Part shown: positions 1,550 through 43,689 of the stretch, piece after piece
Layout of the letters: the number at the start of each line of letters is the position of its first letter
Numbering within the stretch: position 1 is the stretch's first letter
From: Clavulina sp. PMI_390
Lineage: Eukaryota; Basidiomycota; Agaricomycetes; Cantharellales; Hydnaceae
Assembly: GCA_015039315.1 (NCBI GenBank)
Contig: WIDE01000064.1
Span: 19,548 to 72,771, forward strand
Length of the DNA: 53,224 bases
Direction of reading: 5' to 3'
Made by a program: the position numbers and the translations under genes
The notes under the pieces: model-generated
The model's database searches: none
Seen by the model: the letters and a program-made list of their open reading frames with translations, nothing else
Told to the model about the DNA's origin: nothing

Positions 1550-3365
1550 CTAAATAACATCCATCGGGTTCCGGTTGAGCCTGGCCGTTTGCGTATGGAA
1601 AGTAGCAATAAATCTTTTCAATTCTCGCTAGAGATATCCTATAAGGTCAGGTTCACCAAATGCAACATCAGAGTGAATTCAGTTGGTAGTTTCATTTGAG
1701 GTGGCCCACTTACAAAAAGCGACACGCTCATGAGAGGCTCCAGCATGGGCACCTTCGTCAGCAGGTCATCAAACGTGTCGAGGTCATCAGCTTCTCCAGT
1801 CACTAGAAGTTTGACGAGTGAAGGTATACGCTGCCGCGTGTAGACCAGGCTTTGTGGTATCCCAGTGCGCTTGATGAACTCAGGAAAGGAGTCTTCGTCT
1901 ACAGCAAGTTCGAGCAAGGTAAGATTTGGAGGGAGGAGGTCATCCATAGGATTGCGGTGATTTGAGATGGTAGGATGAGAAGATCTTCCTTCTACCGCCT
2001 GGTCCTCATCTTCATCCTGAGTTTCTTCATCCTCTGAATCATCGTCATCGTCTTCACTGTCTTCGGAGTCGCTCTCGTTGTAACGGTCGAACCACTGAGC
2101 ACCATCGAGGATAATCGGCAACGAGACATGCAACTTCTCAAGCGCAATCATTCCGTAAAGTGAACCAATGAAGGGTTCATCTTCATCCCAGTAGTGATCA
2201 GGTTCGTCAGCGGTGATGATTAGTTCCTTGAGGGAAGCAGCGTGGCGGATTATTCCCGGAAGAAGGTCGGAAGCGTTGAAGATTGCTGGGTCGTCGGTAT
2301 CAGAGGAAAGTTGATACTCGAAAGTCTCCAGGCGCAAAGGGAGCTTTAACAGATTCGATATGGTTTTGCATGATGCTGATGAGCTCTTGAGACGAAGAGT
2401 CGTGATGTGACTTGAGTGGGCCGGAAGGGCATACCCACGAGGTATCTTGACAAAGGGAGTGGGTTGAGGAGTGGCAGGATTGTTGGACGAAGAGCTTGGA
2501 GGCAGAGCTGGTGCCGAGACACCAATGTCAAGACGCTCTGCATCCCCTCCGTAGAAGTTGCACACCGTAAGGGTTTGCAGCGATGGTAGGGTCATGAATG
2601 CTGCGACTTCTTCAGTATCGAGCCCGCCCTAGAATGAGGCATAAGAGTGTGTGAATAAATGTATAAAAAAAGTCTTACGTCTGAGTATGGATCTTCTTCG
2701 ATGTAAACCGAGAGCTCAACAATAGACCGGAGGGAGGCAGGAATCTGCCCGCCGAACGCCCCGAAACACGAGTGTGCAACAAAGTTCAGGGGCGCACTAG
2801 CTTCGATATAAAGGGACTGTAGTTTAGGGAGCAGGTGTAAGAGAGTGATAAACATTCCGTCGACTCCTCCATTCAGCACGAGACCGTTTTTCAATCCTAA
2901 AGGCTTGAGGGCAGCGAGGATGATCGATAGATCCGATTGCCCCTTCTCGTCACGGGAGAGAGCTTTTTTCACTTTGGCCTCAGAAATAGATTTCTTCCAT
3001 GAGGCCAAAGTAGCCTTGAATTCGTCCCATTCATGGCCCACGGATGGTACAAACAGCCGGCGAACATGTTTCCCTAATTGCGGGCGAAGCACGATTGTAC
3101 GCGTGAATTGACGAATGCTAGAGTAAGACATTGCGTCTTCTCGTTCTAAATCGTCAAAAAATGCCATAAGGTGAACATCTCGATAAAGGATGGGCTCTAT
3201 TATTGCCTGGAATTGGCGGGAAACACAGTTACAGTTGAGGAGATCTTCTTGGGCAATGTAGTCGCCATCGGGAAAGATCGAATCGTTCAAGAAGGTTTCG
3301 GGAGGATATATCTCTTCCAACACTTGTATCACGAGCTCAGTGGGTAGGTCAGCCCATGTCCCCAT
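1550..3365 (-). CDS. F-box/leucine-rich family A protein, copy 1
   Basis: Predicted SCF ubiquitin-ligase substrate adaptor. The start MGTWADLPTELVIQVLEEI is an F-box-like helix, and all paralogues start at the same point. Exon 1 3365-2679 ends in a GTAAGA donor; exon 2 2628-1714 opens GGLDTEEVAAFMTLPSL and ends at a GTAAGT donor after SLF; exon 3 is placed at 1627-1550. Phases are all 0, giving 559 residues. After the F-box comes NCVSRQFQAIIEPILYRDV, typical of fungal F-box proteins, then degenerate leucine-rich repeats. This copy has a long acidic Asp/Glu/Ser run (about plus-strand 1990-2075) absent from its neighbours. The last exon is uncertain: a second acceptor gives a shorter tail. Substrate unknown. 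Confidence 0.78.
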
Positions 3366-3735
3366 CTTGGTGGTGCTGATGGTGAGCTGGATTCGTTGAT
3401 GCAATTCCCACGACCACAATCCTCGAGTGACCCCAGTAACGGTGACTGAATTGTAACGAGGCTGGCACCAAAGCACGGAGGAACCCCGTGATGACAGCGA
3501 TGGAATCCCGGGTTGCCCATGTTATGAGCGTACGAGATAAATAGAGAGAATAATATGATTTAGAGGCGAGAGGCAATACACCTCGATGATGCAGTGGGGA
3601 AGGGAAATCCTCGCGGATGGCTGAAGAGGTTCGGTTGAATCTTCAAGCGATAAAAAATTATTACAAATCAGAGGCCATGCTATCCGACCCAGATTTAATC
3701 ATTGGATGAGTTATGCCAACTCTTTTTTTTTACCC
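3366..3735. promoter_or_regulatory. Promoter region of F-box copy 1
   Basis: Holds a TTCCCACGACCACA element (3405-3418) 40 bases upstream of the start codon, a variant of the element shared by the array. No further gene is visible up to the end of copy 2. Confidence 0.45.
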
Positions 3736-5465
3736 TCAACTGCTTGGGAGACTTTCATTGGAAATGTTCTAGAAGCTCGCGTCGACAGATTATATGGGGA
3801 AGGTTAGGAGACCAATCAATCAGAGTCTACCCGAAGAGGGATATAGACTCACGAAAAGAATTAGGTTCAAGGGAGGATTGAGTTTCGGTACCTCCTTCAG
3901 GAGGCGGTGTATCACGCCGTGGTCATCAAAGTCTCCACTTACTTCCAGGGTTCGCAGCGAAGGTACACACTGGCTAGTGAGATGCAGGTTCTGAGGGATT
4001 CCAGTGTGCCCGATAAATCTAGCAAGGGAGAGATATCCAATGGCAAGTTCGAGGACTGTGAGGTTTGGGGGAAGGAGGTCATCGAGAGGATTTCGAGTGC
4101 AAGCAGAAGCTGGATAGCGAGATGGTAGGTCAGCAGGCGACCCATCATTGCTCCAGGTCTCGAGGCCGTCGTCATCGGATTCACCATAATCACTATCGAT
4201 GAGCTCCTTGGCACCGGGAAGCACAACGGACAAGGGAGCGCGTAATATCTCCAGTGCACTCATGGCAGAGAGCGACCCAATGAATGGCTCATCATCGTCC
4301 TGCCATTCTGGATCGTATTGTTTAAATACAATCTTGAGCTCCTTCAGGGAAGCCGCCTGGCTGAGAAGGCCGGGGAGAAAATCGGAGGGATGGAAGGGCT
4401 CGTTGTTCAGTCCAATCTCGTATTCAAATTTCTCCAGATGCATGGGGAGCATGAGGATGTAGTTCAGCGTTTTGTATGAGGCAACTGAGCTCTTTAGGCA
4501 AAGATTTGTTATCGGACATGACTTGGCCATGAGAGCATATCCGGTCGGTAATTTGAGAAGCGACGATGAGAGTGGGTGATGAGTAGACATCGAGGGTTCG
4601 GAAGGGCTACCTGGCACTGATGGGTTTACTTGAAGCCATGGGGATCGATGGCGATTGTTGTGGAGCTTATGCACCGTCACTGTTCGGATAGATGGTAAAG
4701 TCATGAAAGGAGCGAGTTCATCTGTATCAGACCCGCCCTGGAGTTACATGTAAGGTTGAGCCGGTATCACAGATAAGATTTACTCACATTCTCATAAGGG
4801 CCTTCGTCTGGAACGAGGGAAAGCTCGGATATTGACAACAGCGCTGCAGGAATTCTTCCACCAAACCCACCGAAACAAGAGCAAGCGATACAGGCAATGC
4901 CCGAATATGACTCGATGTCAAGCACTTGCAGATTCGGAAGCAAATGCAGGAGAACAACAAAGATCCCATCTGAGCGTCCGTGCATCACAAGACCATTGCT
5001 CAGACCTAGCCCTGGTAGGGCATCAAGGATGATAGCCAGGTCAGGCTGCCCAGTAATGTACCCTGACAGCATATTTTGGACCTCCTCCTCATCGATAGAT
5101 TGGTTCCATCGGGATAAATAGACATCGAAGTCGCGATAATAATCACCGAGAGAGTCCACGAATAGTCTGCGGACATATTTTCCCAAATGGGGTTCAAGGA
5201 TAATTGCAGACGCAAATCGATGAATGGCAGGGAAAAATTGATAGATTCCTTGCTTCCTGTGTGGGAAAGCGCTTTCAAGGTGCACATTGCGAAACAGCAG
5301 GGGTCTTGCGATTGTGTGGAACTGACGGGAAACACACGTGCAGCTAAGGAGGTCTTTTCGGGCCTTTGAGCTCGCAATAAGGTCCCCCTGAGGAGACGAC
5401 CGGCTAGAGAGTGCTTCCAACACATGAATCGCGAGCTCGTAGGGTAGGTCTGCCCATACTCCCAT
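3736..5465 (-). CDS. F-box/leucine-rich family A protein, copy 2
   Basis: Same three-exon design as copy 1. Exon 1 5465-4788 starts MGVWADLPYELAIHVLEAL and includes LLSCTCVSRQFHTIARPLLFRNVHL. Exon 2 4737-3853 opens GGSDTDELAPFMTLPSI and ends NLILF before a GTGAGT donor. Exon 3 3768-3736 encodes NISNESLPSS and a stop. All phases are 0, total 531 residues. The leucine-rich part carries the family signature NPLDDLLPPNLTVLELA and an acidic stretch just before it. The next upstream in-frame ATG adds only nine residues not conserved in paralogues, so the MGVWADLP start is preferred. Probably a nuclear or cytosolic SCF adaptor; substrate unknown. Confidence 0.8.
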
Positions 5466-6138
5466 GCTGGCTAACAAGGTGTGGATAAACACAACAGCCC
5501 AGTTCCCACGACACGGCTACTGCAGCACAGGCGGTGACTCAGGCGGTGCAGGATTGTGGCAAATGTTCATCATTGATCCCCCGCTCCCAAATACGAATAA
5601 GAAGCTTCCCGAAGCACCATAACCCGGTTCTATGCTCTCACTGCGGACTGGTACACAAATCGGGGTCCCAATCTCCAGAGGGTGCTGACCACTCTATCGC
5701 TTTCCGAGACTCTGACTGGAATGCTCCCACCATATGTATCAAGGATATTGACCTACTCATTGCTGGGATCTATGGGGTAAGCGTGGATCTGGGCAGGAGG
5801 CTAATTGTAGCCACTCTGTGTCCTTGTAGCGCGCTCTATCGACAGGAGCACTAGATGAATAATGCTGTGTTTCTACCATGTTACTTTGGAGCAATTGGAC
5901 AATTCCGCAATATAGACATTAGCCGCTGACGGCTGATGGACGATAATTCATATTGATTCATTGGGCTCTAGCTGATGAAGAAGAAACTCATTAAGACAGT
6001 AGTCTACCATATTGTGAGCTGATTAAGTGACGCTACAAGATGGTTGGTGGTGGATGTGGCATGAGAGTGGCTAACATATGCGGTGGTCGCAATCATACGC
6101 TTCAACCCTGGTGACTTGCGAAGAAGCGCGTGTAGACT
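5466..6138. promoter_or_regulatory. Promoter and spacer upstream of F-box copy 2
   Basis: TTCCCACGACACG lies at 5513-5525, 48 bases upstream of the start. The remaining roughly 600 bases contain only short unsupported reading frames. Confidence 0.45.
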
Positions 6139-7830
6139 TCATGCATGGCTGCAAATATTCTAGGAGAACAATATTGGTGGAAACAGAGACAAATTGAGCA
6201 CTAAGTACTCACGAAAATTGTTATTTTCATGGGGGGATGGAATTCTGGTATTTGCTTCAACAGGTGGCGCACTACGCCATGTTCATTGAACTCTCCGTTA
6301 ATCACCACATCAATCAGCGAAGGGACGCTATGGCGAGTGGATGTCAAGCTTTGAGGGATTCCCGTGCGCTTGATGAATTTGGCAAAGGAGAAGTGTCCCA
6401 TCCCAAGCTCGAGGGAGGTGAGATTTGGTGGAAGGAGATCGTCAAGGGGGTTACGAGTATCAGTGGGGGCCAAAAAACGAGCTGGAAGGCGATGGGGCCA
6501 CCCCTCCTTGTCCCGTGCTCCGTCGTCATCCCTGTCGTCCGTTTCCTCATTATGATGATCCTCAAGCTCTTCGACGCGTTCAAAGATAATGGGCAGAGGG
6601 ACGCGCAGAATTCTGAGCGCATGCATGTTAGAGAGCGAGCCAATGAATGGCTCATCATCGGTCCAGTCATGTTTATATACTTCCGTCGTAATCACCAGTT
6701 CCTTCAAGGAAGAGGCTTGGCTTAGTAGACCAGGAAGGAAGTCGGAAGGGCAAACGCGTTGGTCATCAAAGTCACCAACCTCGTACTCGAATCTCTCCAA
6801 GCGCATGGGGAGCATCAGAATCTTGCTCAAGTTTTGGCATGATGCGGCACAGCTTTTAAGGTGGAGACTGGTGATGGGGCTCGATCTGGCCAGCAGAGAG
6901 TATTCTGCGCGTATCTCGGGGAACACTGGAGGAAAGAGGGCGGTGGATGTGTTCGAAGGGGATTGAGGGAGAGAATTTGACTGTAGTGCATCGAATTGAA
7001 GCCACTGGTGTCGTTCAAGATCTTCTCCATGGATCTTCCGCACCGTCATGGTTCGGAGAGAAGGTAGGCTCATGAAAGGGGCGAATTCGTCAATCTCAAG
7101 TACACCCTAATATCATGTGTGAGAAGCGAGCCATATGAAAAAGTGAACAGCTTACTGCGTAATACTTATTACTCCGAGCATCCAATGAAAGCTCAGATAT
7201 CGACTGGAGCGAATCAGGGATTCTTCCACCAAAGCCACCAAAGCAGGAGTAAGCAAGAAAAACGATATCCGATTGTGCTTCAATATTGAGTACCTGCAGC
7301 TTGGGGAGCAGATGCAAGAGAATAATGAAGATCCCGTCCGAAGACCCATGCAGCACAAGACCGTTGCTCAGCCCCAGCGCGGGTAGGGCATCGATGATGA
7401 TCGATAGGTCAGGACGCGCTACGTCGTCCCCCGAAAGCGCTTTTTGGATCTCTTGTTCGTCAACTAATTGTTTTCGTCTGGCTACGCTGAAGTCAAAGTC
7501 ACCGTAACTACTACCAAGAGAGTTTGCAGACAGTCTGCGGACACACTTCCCCATGCGGGGCTCAAGTACAATTGCACGCGTGAAGCGGAGAAGGCTGAGG
7601 AAGTACGGAATTCTTCCTTTCCTTTCCGGAGGAGGAGGACCTTGGAGGCGAATATCTCGATACAGGAGTGGCTTTGCGATTGAGTGGAACCGACGGGAGA
7701 CATAGGTGCATTGTAAGAGGTTGTTTTCGCGACGATCCGTTTGGCGTTCATTTTGCATGGGTTGCCCGGGGCATAGTTCTCGCAACACCTGAGTAGCAAG
7801 CTCATCTGGTAAGTCGGCCCACACGCCCAT
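6139..7830 (-). CDS. F-box/leucine-rich family A protein, copy 3
   Basis: Exon 1 7830-7156 starts MGVWADLPDELATQVLREL and contains LLQCTYVSRRFHSIAKPLLYRDIRL. Exon 2 7106-6213 opens GVLEIDEFAPFMSLPSL and ends ITIF at a GTGAGT donor. Exon 3 6159-6139 encodes NICSHA and a stop. Phases are all 0, total 529 residues. The conserved NPLDDLLPPNLTSLELG block and a preceding Asp/Glu-rich linker are present. The longer reading frame adds fifteen residues before MGVWADLP; that extension overlaps the shared promoter element and was not taken as coding. Likely an SCF adaptor with unknown target. Confidence 0.8.
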
Positions 7831-7862
7831 GACGAACGTTGGCGGAGAAGTAGTCAACACAG

Positions 7863-7876
7863 TTCTCACGGTCACG
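7863..7876 (-). promoter_or_regulatory. Shared F-box promoter element, copy 3
   Basis: Plus-strand TTCTCACGGTCACG, 33 bases upstream of the predicted ATG. One mismatch to the form found upstream of copies 5 and 7. The rest of 7877-8201 holds nothing recognisable. Confidence 0.5.
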
Positions 7877-8201
7877 CTCCTGTCCAGAGCGTTTCGCCAT
7901 CTCGCAATAGAATGTACCTGGTTCTAATCACCGGCCACGCTCTAGCACTTGCTGAGAACACATATGAAAAACAGATATATTGTAGCATATTAGCATCGAG
8001 TACAACGCACAATGACGCGCACAACAGGCTGCGACATACACTCTCCTTGACCAAGAAGGTACCGATGTGTGTTGGCAAAGGAAACGACGTGGAACATGAA
8101 TAGCGGATATCTAAGCTTTGCTAGAAGGCTCCGGGAGATAATGTTGGACCTCTATACTGGGGAGATCACAGTCTCCTCCATGGGGAAATGGCGAACAGGT
8201 T

Positions 8202-9944
8202 TCAGCCCCTTGACACACCCTAGAAATTAGGTTTACAGGCGACGGGGAAAATTTTTGAATTTCATCATTAAATAGAATTCCTAGGAATCATTTACACTCA
8301 CAAATAGAGTCAGAATCATAGGAGGCTCGAGTTTCGGTACCCGCTTCAGGATGTGTTGCATCACGCCGTGGTCATCGAAGTCTCCGCTAACCTCCAGGAT
8401 CCGCAACGAAGGTACACGCTGCCGAGTGAGCCCTAGGGTCTGAGGGATGCCGGTGTGCGCGATAAATTTGGCAAAGGATAGTCCCCCAGCAAATAGGTTG
8501 AGGACAATGAGGTTTGGAGGGAGGAGATCATCGAGAGGGTTGCTGATACCGGCGGGAGCTGAGTAGCTACTGGGTAGGCGAATGGGCCATCCCTCCTCGT
8601 CCCCGCGTTCGTTCATGAAAGCGTCATAAGAGTCATCGGAATTGTAAGAAACATCACCTGCCAACTCTTCGGGGAACTCTTCGGCCCCGGACAGCAGAAC
8701 CGGCAAAGGAATACGCAATATCTCTAGTGCAGTCATGCCAGACAGCGAGCCAATGAATGGGTTATCATCATCCTCCCATACTTGCTCAAAGCCTTCGATC
8801 GAAATCTCCAACTCCCTCAATGAGGACGCTTGGCTCAGTAGACCTGGGAGAAAATCAGAAGGGCAGAATGGCTCGTCGTTCGGCTCGCCGATCTCGTACT
8901 CGAACTTCTCCAAACGCACTGGGAGCATGAGGATCTGATTCAAGGTATTGCATGGTGCAAATGAACTTTTCAGACTAAGACTGGTTAATGAGCTTGAATC
9001 GGGTAGAAGAGTGTATCCGGTGGGTGTCTTGAGAAACACCGGTGAACATGGTAGATGAAGTGCAGTCGATGAAGATTCGGTTGGAAAGTCTAGGGTTGAT
9101 GGATTTATTTGAAGCCAGGAGGGTCGGTCAGGATCTTCAAACGCGTGATGCACCGTCATCGTCCGAAGAGATGGTAGTGTCATAAAAGGGACAAATTGAT
9201 CGACAGTACATCCTCCCTAGAGACGCGTGTGAGATCAAGGTATGCTTGAAAGGAATAGTTACCTACAGTATAATCATTGCCGTCTTTAGGACAAAGTGAG
9301 AGCTCAGAGATTGATTGAAGCGCGGCAGGAACCCTCCCTCCGAACCCACCAAAACAGGAGTACGCGAGGCAGGCGAGGTCCGACTCGGCTCCGATATGAA
9401 GTAATCGTAGCTTGGGGAGCAGGTGTAATAGAACAATGAAGATTCCATCCGAACGCCCATGTAACACAATGCCGTTGTTCAACCCTAACCCAAGGAGGGC
9501 CTTGAGAATACTGTATAGGTCAGGGCGCGCGGTGTCTTCCCCCGAAAGCGCTGCTTGGACCTCTTGCTCATCAAAAGATCCGTTCAGCTTGGATACCATC
9601 GAGTTGAAGTCGCCATAAGTAGTCCCGAGGGAGTCCACGGAGAGGTTGTGAACATATCTTCCTAGGTGGGGTTCCAGCACAATTGCACGCGTGAATCGAC
9701 AAAGACTTGGGAAGAAGTCGTATTTTTCTGCTTTTTTGCGCTTGTAAGGAATGCGGAGGCGAACACCGCGAAAAAGGAACGGCTTTGCGATCGCGTGGAA
9801 CTGATGGGAGACATAGGTGCAGGAAAGAATGTCTTTTGTAGCTTGGTAGCTCGGGGCCCATTCCTCATAGCGGGATGGCTGCCTATATACTGCCTCCATC
9901 ACATGGGTCGCAAGTTCATTAGGCAAGTCTGCCCATGCCCCCAT
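8202..9944 (-). CDS. F-box/leucine-rich family A protein, copy 4
   Basis: Exon 1 9944-9267 starts MGAWADLPNELATHVMEAV and contains ILSCTYVSHQFHAIAKPFLFRGVRL. The donor is GTAGGT, chosen over the overlapping GTAACT because only the former keeps the phase-0 junction seen in all paralogues. Exon 2 9216-8302 opens GGCTVDQFVPFMTLPSL and ends LTLF at GTGAGT. Exon 3 8219-8202 encodes GVSRG and a stop. Total 536 residues. The block NPLDDLLPPNLIVLNLF follows an acidic linker containing NSDDSYDAF. Looks functional; a substrate adaptor role is inferred from the F-box only. Confidence 0.8.
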
Positions 9945-9988
9945 GTTGAGCGGCAGCCAAAGAGACAAAAAGTGTATGAACAGTGTCC

Positions 9989-10002
9989 TTCCCACGATCA
10001 CG
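9989..10002 (-). promoter_or_regulatory. Shared F-box promoter element, copy 4
   Basis: Plus-strand TTCCCACGATCACG, 45 bases upstream of the predicted ATG of copy 4. Confidence 0.5.
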
Positions 10003-10446
10003 TCTCAACTGCAGCCTCGTGCACCTGGTGAACATGGTACCGCTGGGCATAATCATTGGCAATGGGTAGAGCATCCCGGAGTAGAACTTATTAATAGCAT
10101 TATTAGCACTAACCATACTCGCTGCCAGAACTTTCATTGTAAACCCCGTGAGTACGAAGCAGCTTTCTCAACTGTTCCATCCAGCTCCCACCTTATTACA
10201 GCCAAGCGTTCTTTTAGCACAGATGTATGAGAAAGAAGAGGTCCGCTATGGTCGCGCTCACAGAAGGCGTCTGGACGGTTCAATTGTCACGCCCACTATA
10301 AGCAGCGTAGATCGTTCACAATCAATGTGTGATATCTCTTATATTAGAGCAGATGCAATCACCAGTGCCAAAGAAAACAAGGTGGGGTAACTCTGCTCTA
10401 AAAACGGCTCTAGCTGAAGCACAATAGATACACATCATAACAAGCG

Positions 10447-10534
10447 AATATTGCGTTTGTGCGACCTGAAGCTAACTGGGTTCTGAGGTTAATATTGCGT
10501 TTGTGCGACCTGAAGCTAACTGGGTTCTGAGGTT
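10447..10534. repeat. Perfect 44-bp tandem duplication
   Basis: Two adjacent identical 44-base units, 10447-10490 and 10491-10534, each starting AATATTGCGTTTGTGCG. They lie in the spacer between F-box copy 4 and the broken copy 5. Perfect identity implies a recent duplication or an assembly effect. No other gene is supported in 10003-10628. Confidence 0.95.
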
Positions 10535-10628
10535 ACTCCTCAGCTACACCAGACTGTGGTATAACCGTGGGCTTCAATTATATGTAGGAGAGCGGGATGA
10601 TCGGGTTTCAACCTTAATTGGAGATAGT

Positions 10629-12307
10629 CTAGAAGCGCAAATGAGCACCCTGTCAAGAGGAATGGATTATTAGACGAAAATGAGTCAGAGAGCTTCACAC
10701 TCACAAAGAAAGTTACGTTTATGGGGGGGTTGAGTTCCGGCACTAGGTCCAAGAGGTGATTTACCACCCCGTAGTCGTCATACCCACCAGTGACCTCCAG
10801 GTTCCGTAGTGCAGGGATGCGCTGGCGAGTGAATGCCAGACTTCGAGGGAGCCCAGTACGCTTCGTGAAGTTTGAAAAAGAGAACTCCGCTATATCGATC
10901 TCGAGCGACCTAAGCTTAGGGGGGAGGAGATTATCCAGGGATTACGAGTGTTAGCAGGGGCTAAATAAGGATTTAGGAGGTGAAGCGGCCATCCGTCTTT
11001 GGCCCGGGCGTCCTGGTCATAATCATCTTCATGATCTCATTGGTTTGCGAGCCCCTCGGCGTCGGGAAGGAGAACAATCAGGGGAGCACGTAGCTTCTCG
11101 AGGGCAGTGATGCCAGAGAGCGATCCAATGAATGGTTCATCATCACTCCAGTCACGGTTGTACACCATAACGGTGATATTGAGCTCCCGCAGTGAGGAGG
11201 CATGGCTCAAGAGACCAGGAAGAAAATGTGAAGGGTAGAATGGATCATCATCATAGACATCACCAATCTGATACTCGAGTGTTTCTAAGCGTATGGGGAG
11301 CATCAGAATCCGACTGAGTAGTGTGCACCGCGCCGTTGAATCTTCCAAGCGAAGACTCGTGATTGAACTTGACCTAGGCAGGATAGTATATCCATTGGGC
11401 CTCTTAAGGAATGCTGGGGAAGGCAAGTTATGGAGTGCAGATGGAAGTAGTTCCGAGGAGATATTTGCCGTTGATGCGCTTAGTCGAAGCCACGACGTTC
11501 GATTGGGGGCTTCATAAACCCTGTGCACGATCATCGTATGGAGAGATGGTAAAACCATGAAGGGGACAAATTCATCAGCACTGAATCCGCCCTAGAGGTG
11601 AAAATGAGAGTATAATTGGATCAAAAGCGAGGGGAACTCACTGTGTAGATGTCGTAATCTTCAGGAACAAGGGAAAGCTCGGAAATTGATTGGAGTGAAG
11701 CAGGTATTCCTCCCCCAAATCCACCAAAAGAGGCGTAGGCTATGTATGCGAGGTCCACTTTTGTTCTGATGTCGAGCAACCGCAATTTAGGAAGGAGATG
11801 CAGGAGAACGATGAAGACCCCATCTGAACGCCCATGCAAAACGAGACTGTTGCTCAGACCCATGCCGGGGAGGGCATCAAGGATAATGGATAGGTCTGAG
11901 CGAGCAACATTCTCGTCCAAAAGTATTTTTGGAACCTCTTTTTCATCAAAGCATTCCTTCCATCTAGCAATATTGAGTTCAAAATCGTCATATTCAGTGC
12001 CCAATGACTCGGCGAACAGCCTGTGAACATGCGTTCCTAGCTGGGGTTTTAGCAGAACGGCGCGAGTGAATTGACAAAGACATGGAAAGAAGCTTGGTAA
12101 TTCTCCGTTTTCACTTGCGACAGGGGCTCGAAGGCGAACATCGCGATAGAGCAAGGGTTCCGTCATTGCTTGAAATTGGTGCGAGACATAGCTGCACTGC
12201 AGCAGATCATTTTGGGCGCGATGGTCCACAACAGGGAATACTGGATCAGAGAGTCCTTCGAGGATCACTATTGCAAGCTCGGTTGGTAGGTCAGCCCACT
12301 GTCCCAT
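10629..12307 (-). pseudogene. F-box/leucine-rich family A, copy 5, disrupted by a stop and a frameshift
   Basis: Exon 1 12307-11642 is intact and starts MGQWADLPTELAIVILEGL. Exon 2 starts at 11591 (GGFSADEFVPFMVLPSL) and stays open until an in-frame TGA after GLANQ near 11037. The same frame then continues as an acidic linker up to TNTRNP-type sequence (ANTRNP). There one base is missing compared with paralogues, so the NPLDDLLPPNL block continues in another frame. The shifted frame runs to the usual GTGAGT donor (exon end 10705), and a last exon 10649-10629 reads GAHLRF and a stop. The two lesions would remove about the last 45 percent of the protein. Alternatives are sequencing error or a truncated but expressed protein. 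Confidence 0.75.
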
Positions 12308-12358
12308 GAATTCTAGAAGATCGGCGTCAAGCTTGCTGTGCTGACAAGAGGCGAATGG

Positions 12359-12372
12359 TTCCCACGGTCACG
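12359..12372 (-). promoter_or_regulatory. Shared F-box promoter element, copy 5
   Basis: Plus-strand TTCCCACGGTCACG, 52 bases upstream of the ATG of the broken copy 5 and identical to the element of copy 7. The spacer to 12964 otherwise shows a short A-run (about 12460) and no gene. Confidence 0.5.
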
Positions 12373-14115: not shown

Positions 14116-14981
14116 ACAGGGGATTCGGCCTCATGCCTTCCCTCTATAGTGATGTCACGAACCGAAACCTTTTCAGCGCCTTGTTTTCTTACGGGGGAAA
14201 CTTCTATATCTGGAATAGAATACTCATTTCAGCCCGATTCCCAATCACGAACCCACTCATACGCGTGCGCTGGCGCAGAGTTATGGACTCTCTCCAACGA
14301 ATGATCTTAATGCGCCTATCAAATCTATGGAGTAAATTGGCTCTCATTATCAAGATTCATAAGTTGGATTCTACGCGATGTACGATGGAATGGGTCGGCG
14401 TTGTTTCCCCGGGCGCCGAGGCGTCTCAATACAGCTCATCAACTTGACACGACAACCATAGGGATAAACATGGGTAGCATGCTTCTAACATACCATTTTA
14501 GAACCATTTGGGTATTCTGCGATTGAGATACTAGGTGCGCAGTAGCTGCACCTTCAAACGATGCGCGTGCTTCACGTTTCCCTGTCCGGGAAAGTTGGAT
14601 GGTGTGCCAGAACCAAGAGAAATCTCGGCTGGTGCTCGTACACTGGGGTATCAGCATAGAGAAGTATGAGATACCATTCTCTCCGACCCGCACCGGCAGT
14701 TGGTAGTGCCACAGCTATTTAGGTGTATAGGGGTATTATTGAATCCTCTGAATGAGTGATATTAAATATCAGAGACCATGGCCAGATCGCCATGCATCTA
14801 AGAGATTGCATACAGAAGCTTTTTTTGAGCACCTCTTGGAGCTTTCATCGAGATGCCACATGGAAAACAGTGCTTCTGCCCGACCGCGCGGCCACGGGAG
14901 CAGAAAAAGGTCCTGATCGAGGTATAAATACCTCGTCGTTTCGCAAAGCGGTCTGGAAGTAAACCCAGGAGGTTCCTTATC
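14116..14981. other. Spacer without supported gene
   Basis: Between the secreted protein gene and the small repeat precursor. Reading frames here are short and lack coding character. The 3' part should hold the promoter of the precursor gene; GTATAAATACC at about 14921-14931 is a possible TATA box roughly 50 bases upstream of its ATG. Confidence 0.45.
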
Positions 14982-15438
14982 ATGAAAGTCGCTTTGATCA
15001 GTGCGCTCTCACTTGCTGTTGCCAATACGATCCGTGCTCTTCCAATCGTCCAACAAACTGGAATAGTAAGTTTTCCGTGCTTTATCATTATTCCACGATG
15101 GTGTTCGTGTGTCTCATCTTATTAATGGCCAGATCGGCAAGCGCGCAGAAGAAATTGTTCGTCGGAAGGAAGTAGAGCATTGCATCCCTAAATCTAACAC
15201 GGAAATACACATCCTCATCGTAGAACCCGGATATCACTATCTACTACCGTAAAGAAAGTACCTCAGAGACCGTCAAAAAGCGCGGAGAAGAGATCGTATG
15301 TGATCATTATTTCTCATGCTAAGTATTCGTACTAATAAGGCCATTTAGAGCCCTGATATCGTCATTTACTATCGTGAAGAAGCCTCGGGCGCGGAGGAAG
15401 CCGCCGAAATTGAGTGCACAAATTGTGTATTCCGCTGA
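14982..15438 (+). CDS. Small secreted precursor with KR-flanked peptide repeats (candidate kexin-processed peptide)
   Basis: Too small for standard ORF calling. Exons: 14982-15065, 15133-15156, 15224-15295, 15349-15438. All junctions are phase 0, total 89 residues. Exon 1 encodes MKVALISALSLAVAN..., a clear signal peptide. Exon 2 ends GKRAEEI. Exon 3 (24 codons) is NPDITIYYRKE...VKKRGEEI. Exon 4 starts SPDIVIYYREE and ends ECTNCVFR. Thus two units of the form (A/G)EEI(N/S)PDI(T/V)IYYR(K/E)E, each directly preceded by Lys-Arg, the cleavage site of Golgi Kex2 protease. The units are split by introns at the same place (after EEI). Exon 2 uses a GTTCGT donor, which is also the best donor in two F-box genes of this window. 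Family knowledge: fungal kexin-processed peptides (alpha-factor type pheromones, repellents, dikaritin precursors) share this design. Whether a peptide is made is inference. Confidence 0.7.
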
Positions 15439-17492: not shown

Positions 17493-19175
17493 CTATTTGG
17501 TTGCGGTATGGATGTTTCTGACGCCCTAAATATTCAAGCACCAAAATCAATCATAATTACCGTGATGAGTTGCTGAGGTAATAACTGAACTCACAAAGAG
17601 GCTTATATTCATGGAGGGCTGAATTACTGGTATCTGGTGCACGATCTCGTGAGGACTGGGTTCCACTGGGCACTTCCGTCCTTTAACGGCGAAGTTGAGT
17701 AGCGAGGGAAGCCTCTGGCGAGTGAAGAGAAGACTTTTCGGGAACCCTGTCTTTTTCCAGAAGCTATCAAACTTTGACCTCTCAAGGTCAAGCGAGAGGG
17801 ATATCAAATTTCGAGGAAGAAGGTTGTCTATGGGGCTGCGAGAAACTGCAGATCCCCCGTTTTCATCTCCATCCCAAGGTTTCCCTTCTTTATCAGGCAT
17901 ATCCAGGAGAAGACGAACAGGCACATTGAGCGTCTCTAGGGCAACCATCCCAGAAAGCGAGCCGATGAAGTACTCGTCATTCCACTGATCAACTCGGTCT
18001 TCCATTTTGATGACGAGCTCTCTGAGAGAAGCCGATTGAGCCATCAGGCCAGGGAGAAACTCCATGGGGCGAAAAGGGAGGCAGCCGACGTTTCCTTCAC
18101 CCAAGCTATGCTCAAACCTTTGCAGGCTAATGGGGAGAGCGAGGATCTTGTTTATGAGTGAGCATGACACCACCGAGTTTGATATGGTGAGGCTCTTGAC
18201 GGAAGACGAACTGGCCGGTATAAAGTATCCTGTAGGTGTTTTCAAGAATGTTGGTGGATCAGCGTCGTTCGACAGCGTTGCTGGAACAGATGACAAAGAT
18301 TCTGCCTCTTCGGTGATCTGCAACCACACAGTACTATCTTCATCGGCCAATAAACCGACAATTCTTACATCCGTGACGGATGGGAGGGTAAGGAATGGTA
18401 CGACCGCAGCGGGACTAAATCCAAACTGTGAATCAAAACCCGTCAGCTGAAGCGATGATTTGAAAATTTGGGATATATATCGCACCTTCGTATCATCGTA
18501 CTCGAGGGTGATATCTGTGACCGAATTTAAGCCGGCAGGGACACCGCCTGCAAAAGTTGCGAGGGAGGAGTACGCAATGAGCTCGAGCTCGGTCCGGGCA
18601 GCAATTGCGAGCTTGCGCAGGTTCGGCAGGAGATGGAGCAGGACAAGGAGGAGACCGTTACCTCCTCCGCGAAGCACAAACCCATTGGGTAGGCCTAGAC
18701 TGGCGAGGGCAGGTAGTATTTGTTTCAAGTCGCCACATGCAGCCTCGCTCATCGAAGACAATGACTCATCCACCTCATCTTTCTCGTAGATGGTACTGCA
18801 GTCATTCGCGAAGGTATAGATATCTTCTTCATCCTCGTAGCATTCAAACTCCAATCCAGGAATGTAGAGTTCACGGACGTGTTTCGCGAGCTGCGGTCGA
18901 AGAACGATAGCACGAGTGAACTGCTGAAGCGTTCGGGAGGAATATTGATCGTTCCACTCATTTCTCCAAGCAGGGATGCGAACCCTATGATACAGGAGGG
19001 TATCAATGATTGTTCGGAACTGGTGGGACACATGACTGTAGCTCAGAAGGGGTTGATCGACCCGATCCCTGACCTTCTCGAACCAAGGTTCATCAGGTTC
19101 CGCATATTGAGTAGGATCAAGCTCCTGTAATATGCTTATGGCGAGCTCCGGGGGTAGGTCAGCCCACACCGCCAT
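17493..19175 (-). CDS. F-box/leucine-rich family A protein, copy 7
   Basis: Exon 1 19175-18486 starts MAVWADLPPELAISILQEL and contains LLSYSHVSHQFRTIIDTLLYHRVRI. Exon 2 18425-17595 opens FGFSPAAVVPFLTLPSV and ends NISLF at GTGAGT. Exon 3 17525-17493 encodes GVRNIHTATK and a stop. Total 517 residues. The first intron (18485-18426) is 60 nt, a multiple of three, and stop-free, so the genomic frame reads straight through it; paralogue comparison supports splicing. The usual NPLDDLLP block is here SPIDNLLPRNLISLSL. An upstream in-frame extension of 45 residues overlaps the promoter element and is not conserved, so it was left out. Confidence 0.8.
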
Positions 19176-19222
19176 GACGAGCGACGAAAGGAAGTGAATC
19201 AGGAAACTGTTTGGAACTGCGG

Positions 19223-19236
19223 TTCCCACGGTCACG
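19223..19236 (-). promoter_or_regulatory. Shared F-box promoter element, copy 7
   Basis: Plus-strand TTCCCACGGTCACG, 48 bases upstream of the ATG and identical to the element of copy 5. Confidence 0.5.
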
Positions 19237-19430
19237 CGTTCCTCGCAAACAATTGAAACGCTTCCATGCTCCAACGCACGCACTCCGACAAATGCACTGA
19301 ACTGCGTCAAGATGGATAAAAATATCTGTCGCCTCGGTCAACACTACTTACTCTCGCAGCAGCCAAAGCTTCTCGATATCCTGAGGGTGGGGTTGCACTC
19401 ACTTCCAATCGCTAACTTTTCTCACTCTAG

Positions 19431-19625
19431 GTCGCGACAACCCTGTCAACCCTACTAGCCCTTTGGTGGGTCCACGTGGCTCTTATAGCCTTGTTCTGGC
19501 AGTTTGCTCCCTCGGGTAGTCGCAATGTGTTGCTAACACTCGGCTGAGCACTTCATGAGTCCCGACCTTAGCATCACTGTTAATGGTCTAGTACATGCAG
19601 CTATTCTTACCACGATCACCTCATA
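19431..19625 (+). pseudogene. Relic of the seven-exon secreted protein gene
   Basis: At 19431 CTAGGTCGCGACAACCCTGTC matches the acceptor and start of exon 6 of the secreted gene (TTAGGTCGTGACGATCTTGTC at 13870). About 120 bases further, 19560-19625 reads LSITVNGLVHAAILTTITS and a stop, matching the final exon (ITIDGLVAVLTVIAS). The first five exons are missing. It sits divergently upstream of F-box copy 7, as the intact gene sits upstream of copy 5, which suggests the pair was duplicated and this half decayed. Confidence 0.65.
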
Positions 19626-20001
19626 ACAGAAAGTTTGAATACATTTTATGATGTCTTCATCGTTTCGACCTTCATTTCTACCATTTTTCCGATCCCCTGG
19701 TGTTACTTTTCACTCCTTCTTTTATTGGAAAACAGAGTCCCTCGGTTTGCGTCACTCTTTCCTCACTGCCTCTGCATCTCTCTGATCTTTCATCCTACAC
19801 GCCCACAGAACGATTGCTTCCCTTCGGCTCTTCGAACAGCTATAAATCTTATTCTGCTGGCTCAATGCATCATCTCAACTTAGGCTCTTGGTGCTTCTAC
19901 ACAAAAACCTCGGATGTGGGCTGGAATGACGTTATGAATATCTAATCAGCTCGAACTTTGGCCACAAAAAGTTTTTTTCTATCTCAGTTGACTTGTTGAG
20001 T
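19626..20001. other. Spacer without supported gene
   Basis: T- and C-rich sequence between the secreted-protein relic and the end of F-box copy 8. Only short reading frames without recognisable content. Confidence 0.4.
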
Positions 20002-21654
20002 TCAGTCGCTACTGACGCCCTAGACATTCGATCACCAAACAAGTTATGACCAGTTTGATGAATTTCAAAATAATTGCCGGACTCACGAAAAATCTGGTCT
20101 TGATAGGGGGTTGAAGCGCTGGTTTTTGGCGCAAAATCTCCCGAAGATTGGATTCCTCCGAGTGATCTAATTCTCCAACAGTGAGGCTCATCAACAAAGG
20201 GAGTCTCTGGCGAGTGAAGCGCAGACTCTTTGGGAGGCCCGTTCTCCTGCGGAAGCTTTCGAAGGCGGATATTTCTAGCTCAAGCTGGAGAGAAACCAAG
20301 CTCGAAGGAAGCCTTTCGTCTATTGGGTTCCGCAGGATCACGGTCCTTTCATTGCTCTGCTCGTTATCGAGTGCGCCTTCTCCGTCGGAAGGGCCGAGCA
20401 GAATGCCAGCGGGTACATGGAGGCTCGCGAGTGCTGTCATTCCCGACAACGAACCAATAAAGAGCTCATCATCGTCGTGCTCGTCCATCCACTTTGTGTT
20501 GATGACAAGCTCCCTCAATGAGGAAGATTGGGCGAGTAGACCAGGAAGAAATTCAGCAGGACGGAAGGGCTCGTAGCCCACAGTAGCTCCACCTAGGCTG
20601 TACTCAAACCTCTCGAGACCAAAGGGAACGGAAAGGATCTTATTGAGGACTAAACATGACAGAACTGAACCCATCATAGCGAGGTTCTTGACGGAAGATG
20701 ATCTCGCTGGTAAAGCATATCCCGTCGGTGTTTTGATGAATGTTGATTTATATCCGCTATCAGGAGCATCCTCTGGAGAGGAGAGCCGATGTCCTGGGAC
20801 TCCGGCAATTTCAAGCCACGAAGAATTCTCGCTCACAGCAGCAAGAGCACCAATCCGCAATTCCGTGATCGAAGGCAGAGCAAGGAATGGGACCACCGCG
20901 GCAGCGCGATATCCATACTATTGAGCGAATCAGCACAACGATTTAGATCACATAGGACTTCCCATACCATGGTATCGTCATAGTTGATCATAAGCTTCGA
21001 ACATAATTTCAACCCAAGTGGGATACCACCAGTGAAAGCAGCGAGGCTCGACCGTGCAACAAACTCTAACTGCGATCTAGCAGTAATTTCGAGTTTCTGC
21101 AGCCTCGGGAGAAGGTGAAGGAGGACAATAAGAACGCCATTTCCTCCCCCGTGGAGCAATATTCCATTGCTCAAACCTAAGCCAGCGAGAGCAGATGAGA
21201 TATCTAGTAGATCATCACGCGCCGCTTTGCTCGCTGCTGAAAAGGCATCATGAACGCGCTCTTCATCGTAGCTGATATTGCACTGTGTCACTAGAGCCGC
21301 AATATCACGATTTTTGCCATACACGCCATCTAGCGATGAAATGTCGAGCTCTCGGACATGATTTGCTAACTCTGGTCGGAGAACGAGCGCGCGAGTGAAT
21401 TGCTGGAGGTTTCGAGAAGTGTATTGACCGTCAGTTTCATCTCTAGCAGCAGAAAGAACAAGTTGGCGATACAGGAGAGGTTCAATGATTGCTCGAAACT
21501 GGTGAGACACATAGGTACAGCTCAGGAGAGTTTGATCGACCCGATGGAGGACTTTTGCAACCCAGAGTTCCTGGGCCGTCTTGTATCGAACAGGATCAAG
21601 CTCATGCAGCACATTCGTGGCAAGCTCGGAAGGGAGATCAGCCCATACTGCCAT
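20002..21654 (-). CDS. F-box/leucine-rich family A protein, copy 8
   Basis: Exon 1 21654-20968 starts MAVWADLPSELATNVLHEL and contains LLSCTYVSHQFRAIIEPLLYRQLVL. Exon 2 20917-20087 opens YGYRAAAVVPFLALPSI and ends KTRFF at GTGAGT. Exon 3 20019-20002 encodes GVSSD and a stop. Total 511 residues. Closest in the window to copy 7 and broken copy 6 (shared ELWVAKV..RVDQTLL insert after the F-box). The leucine-rich block reads NPIDERLPSSLVSLQLELE. Unlike copies 1-5 and 7, the sequence just upstream lacks a clear TTCCCACGGTCACG element, so it may be regulated differently. Presumed SCF adaptor with unknown substrate. Confidence 0.8.
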
Positions 21655-22355
21655 GATGCTAGGCAAGGTCTCAGGTTGCCTTCTGGAACCAGGAGTCCGC
21701 CGTTGCCAGAGCCAGTTTAGTGAATCGGTCTGTTCACAAACTCATATGAATTGAGCAACTAGTCACGCGACTGATGTATCCATGGTGACGGGCACCTTCC
21801 TGTCCCTTCGGTTTCAACAACTGAGGCTCCTACCTACTTCCCACTAACTTCGCTAATCAGGTACTGCGCGGACCTGTAACTAGGTATGACAAATTACGCA
21901 ATGGAAGCCTGGATGGGAATTCCATAATATTTCTGTCGAGGAAGTTGTGAAATATGAAGTGCAATGCATGGCCAGACACACGAACACGGATGAAAGGAAC
22001 TCAGTTTCCCCAGTGGAAGCGCTGGTAATGTCCTCATAGTATTTCGTGGGGATGTGATGAGATATACGAGAAATATCAACTTTTTGGAATGACATGGGTT
22101 TTTATAATACGACAAGAAGCTGAGAGCAATTTAGAACAGCGGTTGTTTAGGAATGCTCAGGAGGATGATCAAGTTTTGGCATATGAAGAGTGATGGAGCA
22201 AGAGAACGGTGCACAAGAATGAAGTCGCGAGCCCGAAAATAGGCGATCATAATAATCGAGTAATCTGAGGAATATTTGAACAATACTTTCTGAGCTGAAG
22301 ACGACCATCAGCTGGGTCTTATTACTACAAGGCACATGGCTCGGAGGAAATACCT
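21655..22355. other. Spacer without supported gene
   Basis: Upstream of F-box copy 8 and downstream of the Myb-like gene. Short minus-strand frames (21880-22115) show no conserved content. Nothing recognised. Confidence 0.4.
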
Positions 22356-26943: not shown

Positions 26944-29359
26944 TCACTTTTTGCCCCACCACCCTCCCAGAATCCCGCTCAAGCCTCCGGTCAAACCACC
27001 TCCACTCGACACAATCTTCGGCTCGGGGACCGGCTCCGGTCCAGGGACCTGGTCCTCCACCTTTGCACGCCTCTTCCCCCCACCGCCTTCACCCGGAAGG
27101 CTAGGGTTCTTCGAAGCTACTGGCGACGGCGGAGCATTTGGCTTGGCCTTACTGATGACGGGAGACGGCGGACCACTCGGTGCAGCTGAACCAGGCACAC
27201 TCTTTCCAGCACGCGCGAGCAGGCGATCTTGTGGGAGCTCGATGTAGTTGAATGCGACGTCCAAGAAGCTTGGCTTCTTGAACTTGGCGTCCGCCTCGGG
27301 GGTACCGGGGATAGCCCCACCATTCAGAGTATACCATGCCATCTTCATTTTTTGTTCTTCTTTCGCGAGAGATTCCTCGAAGGCTGTGAGGGTGTCAGCG
27401 GTGATTGGATAGTGGGATTCCTCAGGCGAGGTAGTTGATGATGAGAAAGTCGTGGTAGTAGAGATGATTGACCGCGCCTCGCGAAGATAGAGCGATGCCT
27501 TTGCCGTGAGGGATAGCGCCTCGGCGTATCGTGTTAGGGTAGCATATGTACGCGCCAAGTGGAAGACACTATAGCGTGGAACAATCCATCAGTTGACTCG
27601 GCGATAGGAGGGCATGAAGTGTTGTATGATGATTCTAGAAAGAAAGGGGTAAGAAACGTACCGTTTCGCACGGGAGAACGCGAGTCGTCCTTCAACGCTC
27701 GGGACCAACTCAACGCTCTCATCAACGACGCTTAAGTTCCGCATCTGCTCAAGACTCTGCAGGATAGCATCGTAGAGCTTGACCAAGCCCGGGTTGATCC
27801 TAGGGTCTTCCTGCTGCTCTTTTCCTTTCCCTGTGGCGGGCGACTTAGTTTGAGGAGTAGGTGTTGCAAGAAGTGAGTCAACGAGCAGGAGATCACGCTC
27901 AATACGCCTGGCGAGGAGACGATAAGATGTGTATGCGAGGACGAAGTGAATATCGCGAGCGGGCCCTCCTTGAGCTCCAGGAGCAGGCGCCTGAGACTCG
28001 GATGAGCCGGAGAGCTATGGTAGTGTTATCGCGATGAAGTTACACATTAGGAACAAAGTCCTATCAGTATATATAGTTAAAATACAGATGATTCTATAGC
28101 GACGTACCTCTTTCGCCTCAGCCAAAGTCTGCGCGACGCTCTCTGCGTCTGCCAACGCCAGCAATACGGCATCATACGAAGCAACCTTGCTTCTCGCGCC
28201 TTTCCCTCCTTTGCTCTTCGGGGCATCACCGCTTTCCTCGCCCTTCACCAGGACATCTTCGGCAGCTTGAACCTTCAAAAACGCATCAACCAACTCGGGG
28301 ACGCGGATCGGGACCGGCGCGCCCTCCCACTGCACCTCGCGGAGCATGCCACGGCGCTGCGAAGAGCCCGCCTCGCTCGCTCGCTCCTTCCTCATCCCTT
28401 CAAGGAGGTCGTTGAAGTTTGGCACATGCTCCTTCAGAAGCGCGGAAGAAGCCGCGTCCTTGCCTGCAGCTCCGAGCACAACAGCTTGGACGACTGCGCC
28501 GGTGTCGTATGCGTTCTTGACACCAAGGGAATGAGCGGCGTACCGAATCTGCGGAGCGATCTCGTCTGCGAACGTCCCATAGAGAGCTTCTTCTCGAGAA
28601 GAGTTGGGGTTCTCGTTAAGGGCAGCTGGAGAGAGGAGGTATGCTGCGAGAGCTAGGAGAGGGAGGGCCTCTGCAAATGCATCGCGCCGGAGATAGAAGC
28701 GACCTTGAAGGGTGAGGTGATAGGCGTGGATCTCAAGGAGTGTCGTAGGGGAGATGTTTTTGGTCGTGGAAAGGATGGAACGTGCTTGGGAGAGCAGCGT
28801 CGACGAGTGCGAGACGGCACGCCGGAAGCGGGCCGTGCTAGCGTGTCTTAGAGCACCATTGCCTTCTTCAGAGATGTCTGGAGCGGACGAGATTTCATGC
28901 GAGTGGGTCCATGCGCGTTCCGCTTCGAAAAGGGATAGCTGAAGACTAGATTGTGGAGAGGAGGAAAGTGAGATGTCGTTCGATGGGGGGTAGGAGGGAT
29001 CGATTGAACGTACTGCTCATTAGTAAGAGCTTCTGCGCTCACAGGAGCCACCTTTTTGAACTCGCGACCTTTGCCATGGGTCAGCTTGAGCTTCTGGCGA
29101 AGGCGTTGGACTTTATGGGAGCAATGAGCACTGGAAGCGATGACGCTTTAGAAGTAGCACTAGGCGAGATAGTTAGTAGTATGACTCACTGATACTTTGC
29201 ATATTCGTTTGACCTCAGTCCATACCCGTTCCGCTCCTCATTGATCAGAGCAAGGACTAGATTCACACACCGATAAAAGACATGGTCAGATATTTCCTCA
29301 CAAGCTCATTCGAGTTACATATAGACTTTACCTTTCAGATTGACCTCTTGAGCCGCCAT
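26944..29359 (-). CDS. SRP68: Signal recognition particle subunit SRP68
   Basis: Core subunit of the cytosolic signal recognition particle; it binds SRP RNA and SRP72 and helps target ribosomes with signal sequences to the ER. Exon 1 29359-29332 encodes MAAQEVNLK. Exon 2 from 29256 gives VLALINEERNGYGLRSNEYAKYH, the expected SRP68 N-terminus, followed by the basic KVQRLRQKLKLTHGKGREF RNA-binding region. A long middle exon (about 28925-28110) has tetratricopeptide-like helices and a Gly/Lys linker (KSKGGKGARSK). The last exon contains KPSFLDVAFNYIELP, equivalent to the PLFFDLALNHV C-terminal signature of animal SRP68, and ends with a Pro/Gly-rich tail GGWWGKK. At least five exons. Divergent from GET3. 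Confidence 0.88.
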
Positions 29360-38700: not shown

Positions 38701-39021
38701 CGGAGAACGCAGCGATTGAGTCGAAAGAGGAGGAAATGACTTCTTTTGACCGTGGTCGGGACCATGCTCGCCAAGTAAGCCTTTGTCTTTTTTCCGCGGC
38801 TATGATGTGCTGATGATTCTGCATATCTAACTCAGCAAACTGTTCTTTCTCCCCGCAGTTCCATTATAGTTGAAGACTCGAGTTTTCAATTCAGTACCCT
38901 TGATGGCGCCAATTCTCCTTCACTGTCAACCTTCCCTGCGAAACGCCCCTCTGTCAAACGGAAAAAGCGCAGTAACGATGATTCCCAAAGCCCTCGATTC
39001 GAGCGCATGATGATTGATTAG
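32750..39021 (+). CDS. Protein tyrosine phosphatase with rhodanese-like domain
   Basis: Dephosphorylates phosphotyrosine, probably on MAP kinases as for the fungal PTP2/PTP3/Pyp class. Exons 32750-34883, 35071-35650, 35756-38774 and 38836-39021, total 1972 residues. Order: a long Pro/Ser-rich disordered N-terminus; a rhodanese/Cdc25-like domain (RNLIIDIRNHAHFLDARIAGAISLSVP ... RIIVYDADTSV ... VIGGFGAVARAFP) containing a poly-Gly loop; then the PTP domain: KNRYRNIWPFEHARVRL formed across the exon 2/3 junction, TGYINASYVQP, YIATQGPL, WPDLNVPSS (general acid Asp), and HCSAGVGRTG (nucleophile Cys). The closing helix MSLCQTLRQYVFVHLAVLEG comes only after roughly 650 low-complexity residues. The C-terminus is basic (KRKKRS). 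Exon 4 was chosen by frame closure. Confidence 0.88.
34417..34454 (+). repeat. (GGT)n microsatellite coding for poly-glycine
   Basis: Uninterrupted GGT run inside the rhodanese-like domain of the phosphatase, giving about 13 glycines between two conserved strands. Such a run may vary in length between strains. Confidence 0.9.
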
Positions 39022-39460
39022 TTATGAGCTTCCCTTCTCAATCCCCAAATGTCTTTTGTGTCAAATATTTGTGTACTTTTTTTGTTTCTCATTCGCCTGA
39101 TCCGACAACTCTACTGCTTGGTCATTTCGAACTCCTTGAGGATTGCACGCTCGTGACTCAACCCCTGTTTGCGCTCATGCTATCCGTCTCTTCAACTCGT
39201 TTCCCTTTGTCTCCACATTATTCAATCTTGCATTTCACCGTTCTTCTGAACTACATGCCGCCACATCTTCCAGTTTTGTTACGCTATTGCATTAATATCA
39301 TGCTTCACATCTCATCATGGCTGATAACTTTTACATATCCATACAAACACCCACATGTTACACCCAATCAAGTTATTAATCGCTTTCTGAGCTTGGTATA
39401 GACTGCTGGTTTATTTCTTCAAAATCAAAGGACACCACCTGCTTCGCCCTTTGAGCCGGG
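39022..39460. other. Convergent 3' spacer
   Basis: AT-rich 3' flanks of the phosphatase (plus) and RCC1-like gene (minus). No gene supported. Confidence 0.45.
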
Positions 39461-40936: not shown

Positions 40937-41376
40937 TGGTGCACCAGAATATCAACGAAACCGTTTGCCCTCCGATATGCTAGTTCGTCAACACTTTGGT
41001 AGGACTTCTATAATCTTCACGCGATAAGCGCTGTGAAATCATTTTATGGTATCACGCGATGCCGTCATTATAACTCTGAGAAACATTGGACGCACAGAAA
41101 CTATTACTGTGAACAAGGGGCACAATTGATGAAAGTAATACAGGACCAAACAATCAATACCACTCTGTAGCTAGTTGGGTAATTGAGTGCGATTCAATCA
41201 TCCGTGCCTCTCCAAAAAAAATCGATCGGTCGATGTATTGTACTAGTGTTGAACAATTATCACTCCGAATTCTGCTCTCTCTTCGCTTCTGAACTTGTCT
41301 CTCCGCAGAAAAGAGAGTCCGAACGTTCCGGAGGGGGAGGGGGCAGTTCTGATCCCGTAACCCCTTCAGCATAGGG
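40937..41376. other. Spacer, left edge of segmental duplication
   Basis: Upstream of the RCC1-like gene and downstream of F-box family B copy 1. Its part from about 41090 (GGACGCACAGAAACTATTA) resembles 51060 onward, next to family B copy 3. No gene. Confidence 0.45.
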
Positions 41377-43070: not shown

Positions 43071-43689
43071 ATATTCACGCGTTGGAAGGTTCAAACGAGT
43101 CAGAACACCAGAAAGAATATGATTGTGACTTAGTTGGGCAGTGTGATGTGGAACCAAGGGAGAAGTGTCTGCTTGCGAAGGTCACAGTGTTCCGCCGCGC
43201 GCCTACTGAATTTGCAAAAGTACCATCTCATTGGTGGCCCAATGTGTCGTCGCAGATAACACACGTCGCTCTTAATTACTGTCTCTCTCCATTATGGAAT
43301 AGCCTAACGCGGCCACTAGACCACCTCGACCCCAATGGTCCTTAGTTTGTGAATTAACTTCTTGTACGTGTCCTCAGTAGCCTCATTGCGAGTCTAACGG
43401 CTCAGGGTTCACCGTGATCAATTTGAGCCACGTTTTGACAGTAGTCTGGGCCACTAATGCCAAGATATTATTCCTTTCCACTAAAGGGATGCCCTTGCCG
43501 AAAACAGTCATCACAGTCGTGGACGCCATACCAGGAGGATGCTATCAACGTTCAATGCGAATGATTACTCCACTAACTCACGGCGCGACATCAACCAACA
43601 TTTATAGTGTTAATGCTAGGATTGTTGTCGATGACCGCTTCATTGTCAAGCGCCCGTCTCTTTGGAGTCTGTCACTCCTTTGGCACAGG
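43071..43689. other. Spacer with conserved family B upstream block
   Basis: 43181-43219 (GTCACAGTGTTCCGCCGCGC...) closely matches 53173-53210 upstream of family B copy 3, on the far side of the locus. No supported gene in the rest. Confidence 0.5.

Follow-up and report, generated by a model that had tools for sequence, protein, structure and literature searches.

A candidate secreted peptide precursor with one core per exon in Clavulina sp. PMI_390, and relatives beside UstYa-family genes

Whether a small gene of Clavulina sp. PMI_390 (Basidiomycota; Cantharellales; Hydnaceae) encodes a working secreted peptide precursor, and of which kind, is the question raised by the locus studied here. 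The gene, E, lies in a window of 53,224 nucleotides (contig C263, positions 19548–72771), the whole stretch of DNA that was analyzed. An initial annotation had read it as a signal peptide followed by two near-identical units, each behind Lys-Arg (KR), on four exons joined in phase 0 with an intron cutting each unit at the same place, and had likened this design to pheromone-like, repellent or dikaritin precursors. We model E as an apparently unannotated four-exon precursor gene at window positions 14982–15438 on the + strand, with its ATG at 14982:

14982..15065, + strand: exon 1, hydrophobic leader (signal peptide by hydropathy), 84 nt
15066..15132, + strand: intron 1, 67 nt, GTAAGT..CAG
15133..15156, + strand: exon 2, IGKRAEEI, carrying the first KR, 24 nt (8 codons)
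15157..15223, + strand: intron 2, 67 nt, weak donor GTTCGT, acceptor TAG
15224..15295, + strand: exon 3, core 1 NPDITIYYR, then an acidic spacer, then the second KRGEEI, 72 nt
15296..15348, + strand: intron 3, 53 nt, GTATGT..TAG
15349..15438, + strand: exon 4, core 2 SPDIVIYYR and a tail ending ECTNCVFR, stop included, 90 nt

All four exon lengths (84, 24, 72 and 90 nt) are multiples of three, the joins are in phase 0 and the introns are GT..AG, giving by exon the product MKVALISALSLAVANTIRALPIVQQTGI (exon 1), IGKRAEEI (exon 2), NPDITIYYRKESTSETVKKRGEEI (exon 3) and SPDIVIYYREEASGAEEAAEIECTNCVFR with the stop (exon 4). The units KR-AEEI-NPDITIYYR and KR-GEEI-SPDIVIYYR agree at 12 of 15 residues from KR to YYR, and each is interrupted by an intron directly after EEI, so that the splice model bears out both the annotated exon phases and intron positions and the near-identity of the KR-preceded units. 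The proposed signal peptide agrees with hydropathy, the measure used, with a mean of 2.49 over 12 residues from residue 3, compared to 2.14–2.85 in the related or neighboring precursors A, B, C, D and G introduced below. Intron 2 begins GTTCGT, as against a GT[AGC] start in each of the 14 remaining introns in the five precursor genes, and its retention would stop the frame ahead of the first core. Because a search with 768 candidates returned no public protein equal to E, the gene appears to be unannotated.

A Pfam scan covering 30 of the 76 window ORFs of at least 120 aa characterized the surroundings. F-box-like matches (PF12937) run on the − strand through 2592–12367, 17547–21741 and 41592–52934, in ten of the 30 scanned ORFs (E-value up to 0.001), five of them over the Pfam cutoff. 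Other assignments from the same scan were as follows:

26944–29016, − strand: SRP68 ORF
35685–38813, + strand: protein-tyrosine phosphatase ORF
39461–40951, − strand: RCC1-repeat ORF
46956–47753, + strand: questin-oxidase-like ORF

With E as query against its own genome (39.4 Mb, 301 contigs), matches comprised E's own exons and contig C237, which carries an array of relatives:

C237:36855–36296, − strand: A, three units
C237:34993–34600, − strand: B, two units
C237:33088–32711, − strand: C, two units
C237:31364–31049, − strand: D, degenerate, one core, with ER where the first KR is expected

Common to A, B, C and E is an exon plan in which exon 2 comprises eight codons, xxKRxEE[IV], and every core opens a new exon. 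Public Clavulina sp. PMI_390 models fit this plan: the spliced protein of A is identical to P0002, P0004 contains B in full, preceded by 21 extra residues, and P0003 equals C from residue 15 onward and continues into D. The exon junctions of A, B, D and the P0003-covered part of C agree with these models. A near-twin of E, F (P0005), is encoded on a 2989-base public contig and has no identical match in this assembly. Of 60 residues compared, 44 are identical in F and E, with 0/15 differences from KR to YYR versus 16/45 elsewhere (Fisher p 0.006); the public model of F ends after its second KRAEEI, that is, before any second core. An EC-x-x-C motif occurs C-terminally in E (ECTNCVFR, window 15409–15438) and D (ECMGC, C237:31049–31066) and is absent from A, B and C.

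In protein searches, four proteins reached an E-value of up to 0.1 among the 768 candidates, all from Clavulina sp. PMI_390, and a longer query against proteins of about 150–490 aa gave no relative outside Clavulina at this threshold among 7996 candidates scored. The KR-spaced homologues for which the initial annotation had suggested searching related genomes were recovered within the same genome, as four more genes (A, B, C and the degenerate D) plus the public twin F, and in no other species by searches scored to 0.1. Viral or plasmid relatives of E were likewise absent (0/226 pattern matches confirmed; megablast without match). That E was recently copied from C237 as part of a larger segment was considered and rejected: over E ± 3 kb, similarity to C237 is limited to two patches (44 and 37 bases) that fall in the leader exon and first unit.

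About 3 kb from D and on the same strand of C237 as A–D, we observed a second exon-per-unit precursor with a different unit type, G (C237:28161–27483, − strand). It consists of a leader exon, five 39-nt phase-0 unit exons (DLEYWGRREAPKE, DMVYWKRAESPKE, DAVYWKRADGPKE, DEVYWKRSDAPKE and DLEYWGRRDGPKE) and a last exon of 27 nt (DEVYWKRK).

Substitution patterns distinguish the units from the leader. Across nine 15-codon units taken from E, A, B and C, pooled pS was 0.73 and pN 0.16, in comparisons that are non-independent, with synonymous sites near saturation and with D (lost KR) and F (DNA not used) left out of the unit counts. E units against A–C units gave nearly the same values (pS 0.74, pN 0.16), and between the two units of E itself, 6 of 9.3 synonymous sites differ, as against 4 of 35.7 non-synonymous ones. 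Constraint is weaker on the leader exon (pS 0.56 and pN 0.39, pooled for E, A, B and D; C omitted for length). A core tyrosine is among six invariant columns, the first Tyr of the YY pair being kept in 10/10 units; the pair itself is Tyr-Tyr in nine of the ten and Tyr-Trp in A3 only. Judged by these ratios, the units are under purifying selection.

Upstream of E, two promoter motifs were recognized:

14871..14881, + strand: 11-base element TGCTTCTGCCC, consensus TGCTTCTRCCC, at −111 of E
14923..14929, + strand: TATA box TATAAAT, at −59 of E

Motifs of the TATA class [TC]ATAAA[AT] occur at −59 (E), −68 (A), −70 (B) and −65 (C), against a background of 0.010 per 60 bases on one strand of the window; none lies proximally before D. 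The 11-base element is found at −111 (E), −121 (A) and −116 (C), and was not found before B or D. It was first spotted by eye and the trio E/A/C was picked afterwards, which qualifies its three-way score of 21/22, a value reached in 0/300 random window triples (best 18). Genome-wide, TGCTTCTRCCC shows no overall enrichment, with 62 sites, three of them those before E, A and C, versus 72 for the reversed control.

The initial annotation had noted that the Tyr-Tyr core would suit oxidative cross-linking and had reported no UstYa-type modifying gene in the window. This absence is borne out: the five HxxHC strings in the six frames of the window fall in open frames of only 36–107 aa, and none of the 18 UstYa (PF11807) matches in the genome, 11 of them on contig C2 and seven elsewhere, lies on the contig of E. 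On C237, the matches represent two genes with two HxxHC motifs each, U1 (38010–39029) and U2 (about 39363–40500, inner exon borders partly worked out). A and U1 are divergent neighbors, ~1.15 kb apart. U1 is identical to the public Clavulina sp. PMI_390 model P0006, and its best named foreign relatives among 14 hits are Mycena metata and Sistotremastrum proteins; a search for a solved UstYa relative gave only four weak matches, to IMP dehydrogenase (E-values of 0.58–0.92). The 18–56-kb region of C237 has 65 distinct ORFs that reach 100 aa; a scan of 20 of them detected UstYa, MFS-like, aldehyde dehydrogenase, ABC transporter and phosphoesterase matches and neither a tyrosinase nor an S41 peptidase, enzymes that occur in some dikaritin clusters.

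Other UstYa matches were seen with or without repeat precursors nearby. Near the matches at C60:36613–37301, a single-exon precursor starting at 38764 (+ strand) carries four GSYYGVAKR copies in 22-residue units. Two precursors with 18-residue DTPPVDTEFTAYGGEKR units, some bases being N, lie amid the C2 matches (C2:59611–58093, − strand, and from 91410, + strand). A UstYa match pair at C198:125824–127525 (+ strand) had no repeat precursor within C198:118001–135900 in a scan with a KR filter that fails to pick up E as well.

Fungi have kexin. Genome searches with PF01483 and with a kexin sequence stretch each gave 0 matches, in searches that introns weaken, and PF00082 gave eight, of which two loci inspected by eye look proteinase-K-like.

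Taken together, these data show that E is a real gene, and one that probably works. Our preferred reading, to which we assign a probability of roughly 0.6, is that E is a dispersed, probably functional KEX2-processed repeat protein (KEP) gene of a family whose Tyr-Tyr cores would probably be cross-linked by UstYa-type enzymes in a dikaritin-like manner, for E in trans. Because its close relatives adjoin genes for candidate peptide-cyclizing enzymes elsewhere in the genome, E gives the impression of a stray copy from a natural-product family about which little is known. The E protein would enter the secretory pathway and be cleaved by kexin after KR, giving products of ~22 and 33 residues before trimming, for example AEEINPDITIYYRKESTSETVK and a C-terminal 33-residue peptide, while UstYa-type oxidases may cross-link the Tyr residues of NPDIxIYYR, either mutually or to neighboring Ile, Val or Leu. 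Since the contig of E carries no UstYa gene, the C237 enzymes are the candidates for modifying E in trans. Counting for this reading are the splice model, the exon plan of A–C, the public models, the twin F, selection on the units, the promoter motifs and the UstYa pair by A. Counting against it are the lack of a UstYa gene on E's contig, the weak intron 2 donor, the missing public model of E and the lack of an identified kexin gene, and further the absence of the 11-base element from B and the decay of a family member, D.

Among the alternatives, the one that survives best, with perhaps a one-in-five standing, is that E is a KEP yielding linear, unmodified secreted peptides for signaling, surface or defense functions, with the C237 UstYa genes serving other precursors such as G. 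The UstYa-free contig of E would fit, as would the survey in the main text of PMC7329392, in which most KEPs are without UstYa neighbors (present for 1758 of 7878, and for 103 of 1680 in Basidiomycota). Against it, E-type precursors A–D adjoin UstYa genes, with A and U1 in divergent orientation, and the core tyrosine is invariant, with Tyr-Tyr in nine of ten units and Tyr-Trp in the tenth. Less likely still, E could be a decaying copy that worked recently and is now poorly spliced or silent, a notion consistent with the intron 2 donor and the stop that its retention brings, with the degenerate sister D and with the failure to retrieve a public E model; yet E keeps its open frame, both KR sites, both cores and its promoter motifs, and the synonymous excess is strong both between E1 and E2 and between E and A–C. 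Chance assembly of frames, for which nothing speaks beyond the absent public model, is excluded as the source of E by 0/60 dinucleotide shuffles against one E-type repeat pair in the window (9-mer pairs ending YY[RK], at least 6/9 alike and at most 600 nt apart, a pattern fixed after the gene was seen) and was already refuted by paralogues built on the same exon plan, as well as by public models.

Extending our preferred reading of E as a trans-modified family member, we tentatively propose, as an idea with odds well below even, that Clavulina makes UstYa-cyclized peptides from exon-modular precursors, the E/A/B/C type and G sharing a cluster and strand, and that dispersed copies like E, controlled by a promoter element in common with the cluster, supply its enzymes in trans. 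If true, in-phase one-core exons would let exon duplication, loss or skipping alter the peptide mix while leaving the frame intact.

How, then, does E compare with known systems? By the design read from its sequence, E is a KEP: like the precursors described in the main texts of PMC6339444 and PMC7329392, it has a leader, repeated units and KR between them. It is unlike KEPs in general in having just two units, with an intron inside each, and no relative outside Clavulina among the candidates scored. Alpha-type pheromone precursors (PMC6339444, main text) are also kexin-style multi-peptide precursors, for which that text describes an XA/XP Ste13 signature after KR. This signature is absent from E, A, B and C, whose units start AE, GE, DE, VE or EE after KR. 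The secreted, KR-spaced, exon-encoded repeat design recurs in the relatives. Of the precursor types initially considered, the dikaritin-like one gains because A–D share their locus with two UstYa-family genes.

Dikaritins (ustiloxins, phomopsins and asperipins; oxidases UstYa/UstYb), as presented in the main texts of PMC6514808 and PMC9233826, resemble E in their multi-core secreted precursors, KR sites and core Tyr, and the two UstYa-family genes at their locus add to the likeness for A–D. Differences are the basidiomycete host, another core, one core per exon and the lack of linkage between E and a UstYa gene. E has Tyr in its repeated core, and a UstYa gene lies near A–D and not near E (0/18 matches on its contig); for want of this linkage, we do not file E itself as a dikaritin, and A, B and C come closer. 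Epichloecyclins (gigA), according to the same two main texts, share with E a leader, KR-spaced imperfect repeats and core Ile and Tyr, between which a cross-link is reported, and differ from it in their ascomycete origin and four repeats.

UstYa-linked KEPs are already a known kind, and basidiomycete cases are uncommon: the main text of the 2020 survey (PMC7329392) counts UstYa (DUF3328) neighbors for 1647 of 5372 ascomycete KEPs versus 103 of 1680 basidiomycete ones. Passages of PMC7329392, PMC9769878, PMC6339444, PMC6514808 and PMC9233826 were among the literature in which we found no description of the E family or of a KEP with one exon per core. The word ‘intron’ is absent from the main texts of PMC7329392, PMC6339444 and PMC6514808, and ‘Clavulina’ from that of PMC7329392. 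E represents a known precursor kind in an unusual lineage and layout, its attractive extra being the exon-per-core plan, repeated in G, which would offer a route to peptide diversity through exon gain, loss or skipping. Genes of this sort, whose exons may be only 24 nt long, can be overlooked in annotation, as E illustrates. This is a compact basidiomycete family, comprising three clustered members that carry KR sites (A, B and C) and the dispersed E, with conserved cores and candidate enzymes, so that what UstYa proteins do outside ascomycetes becomes directly testable.
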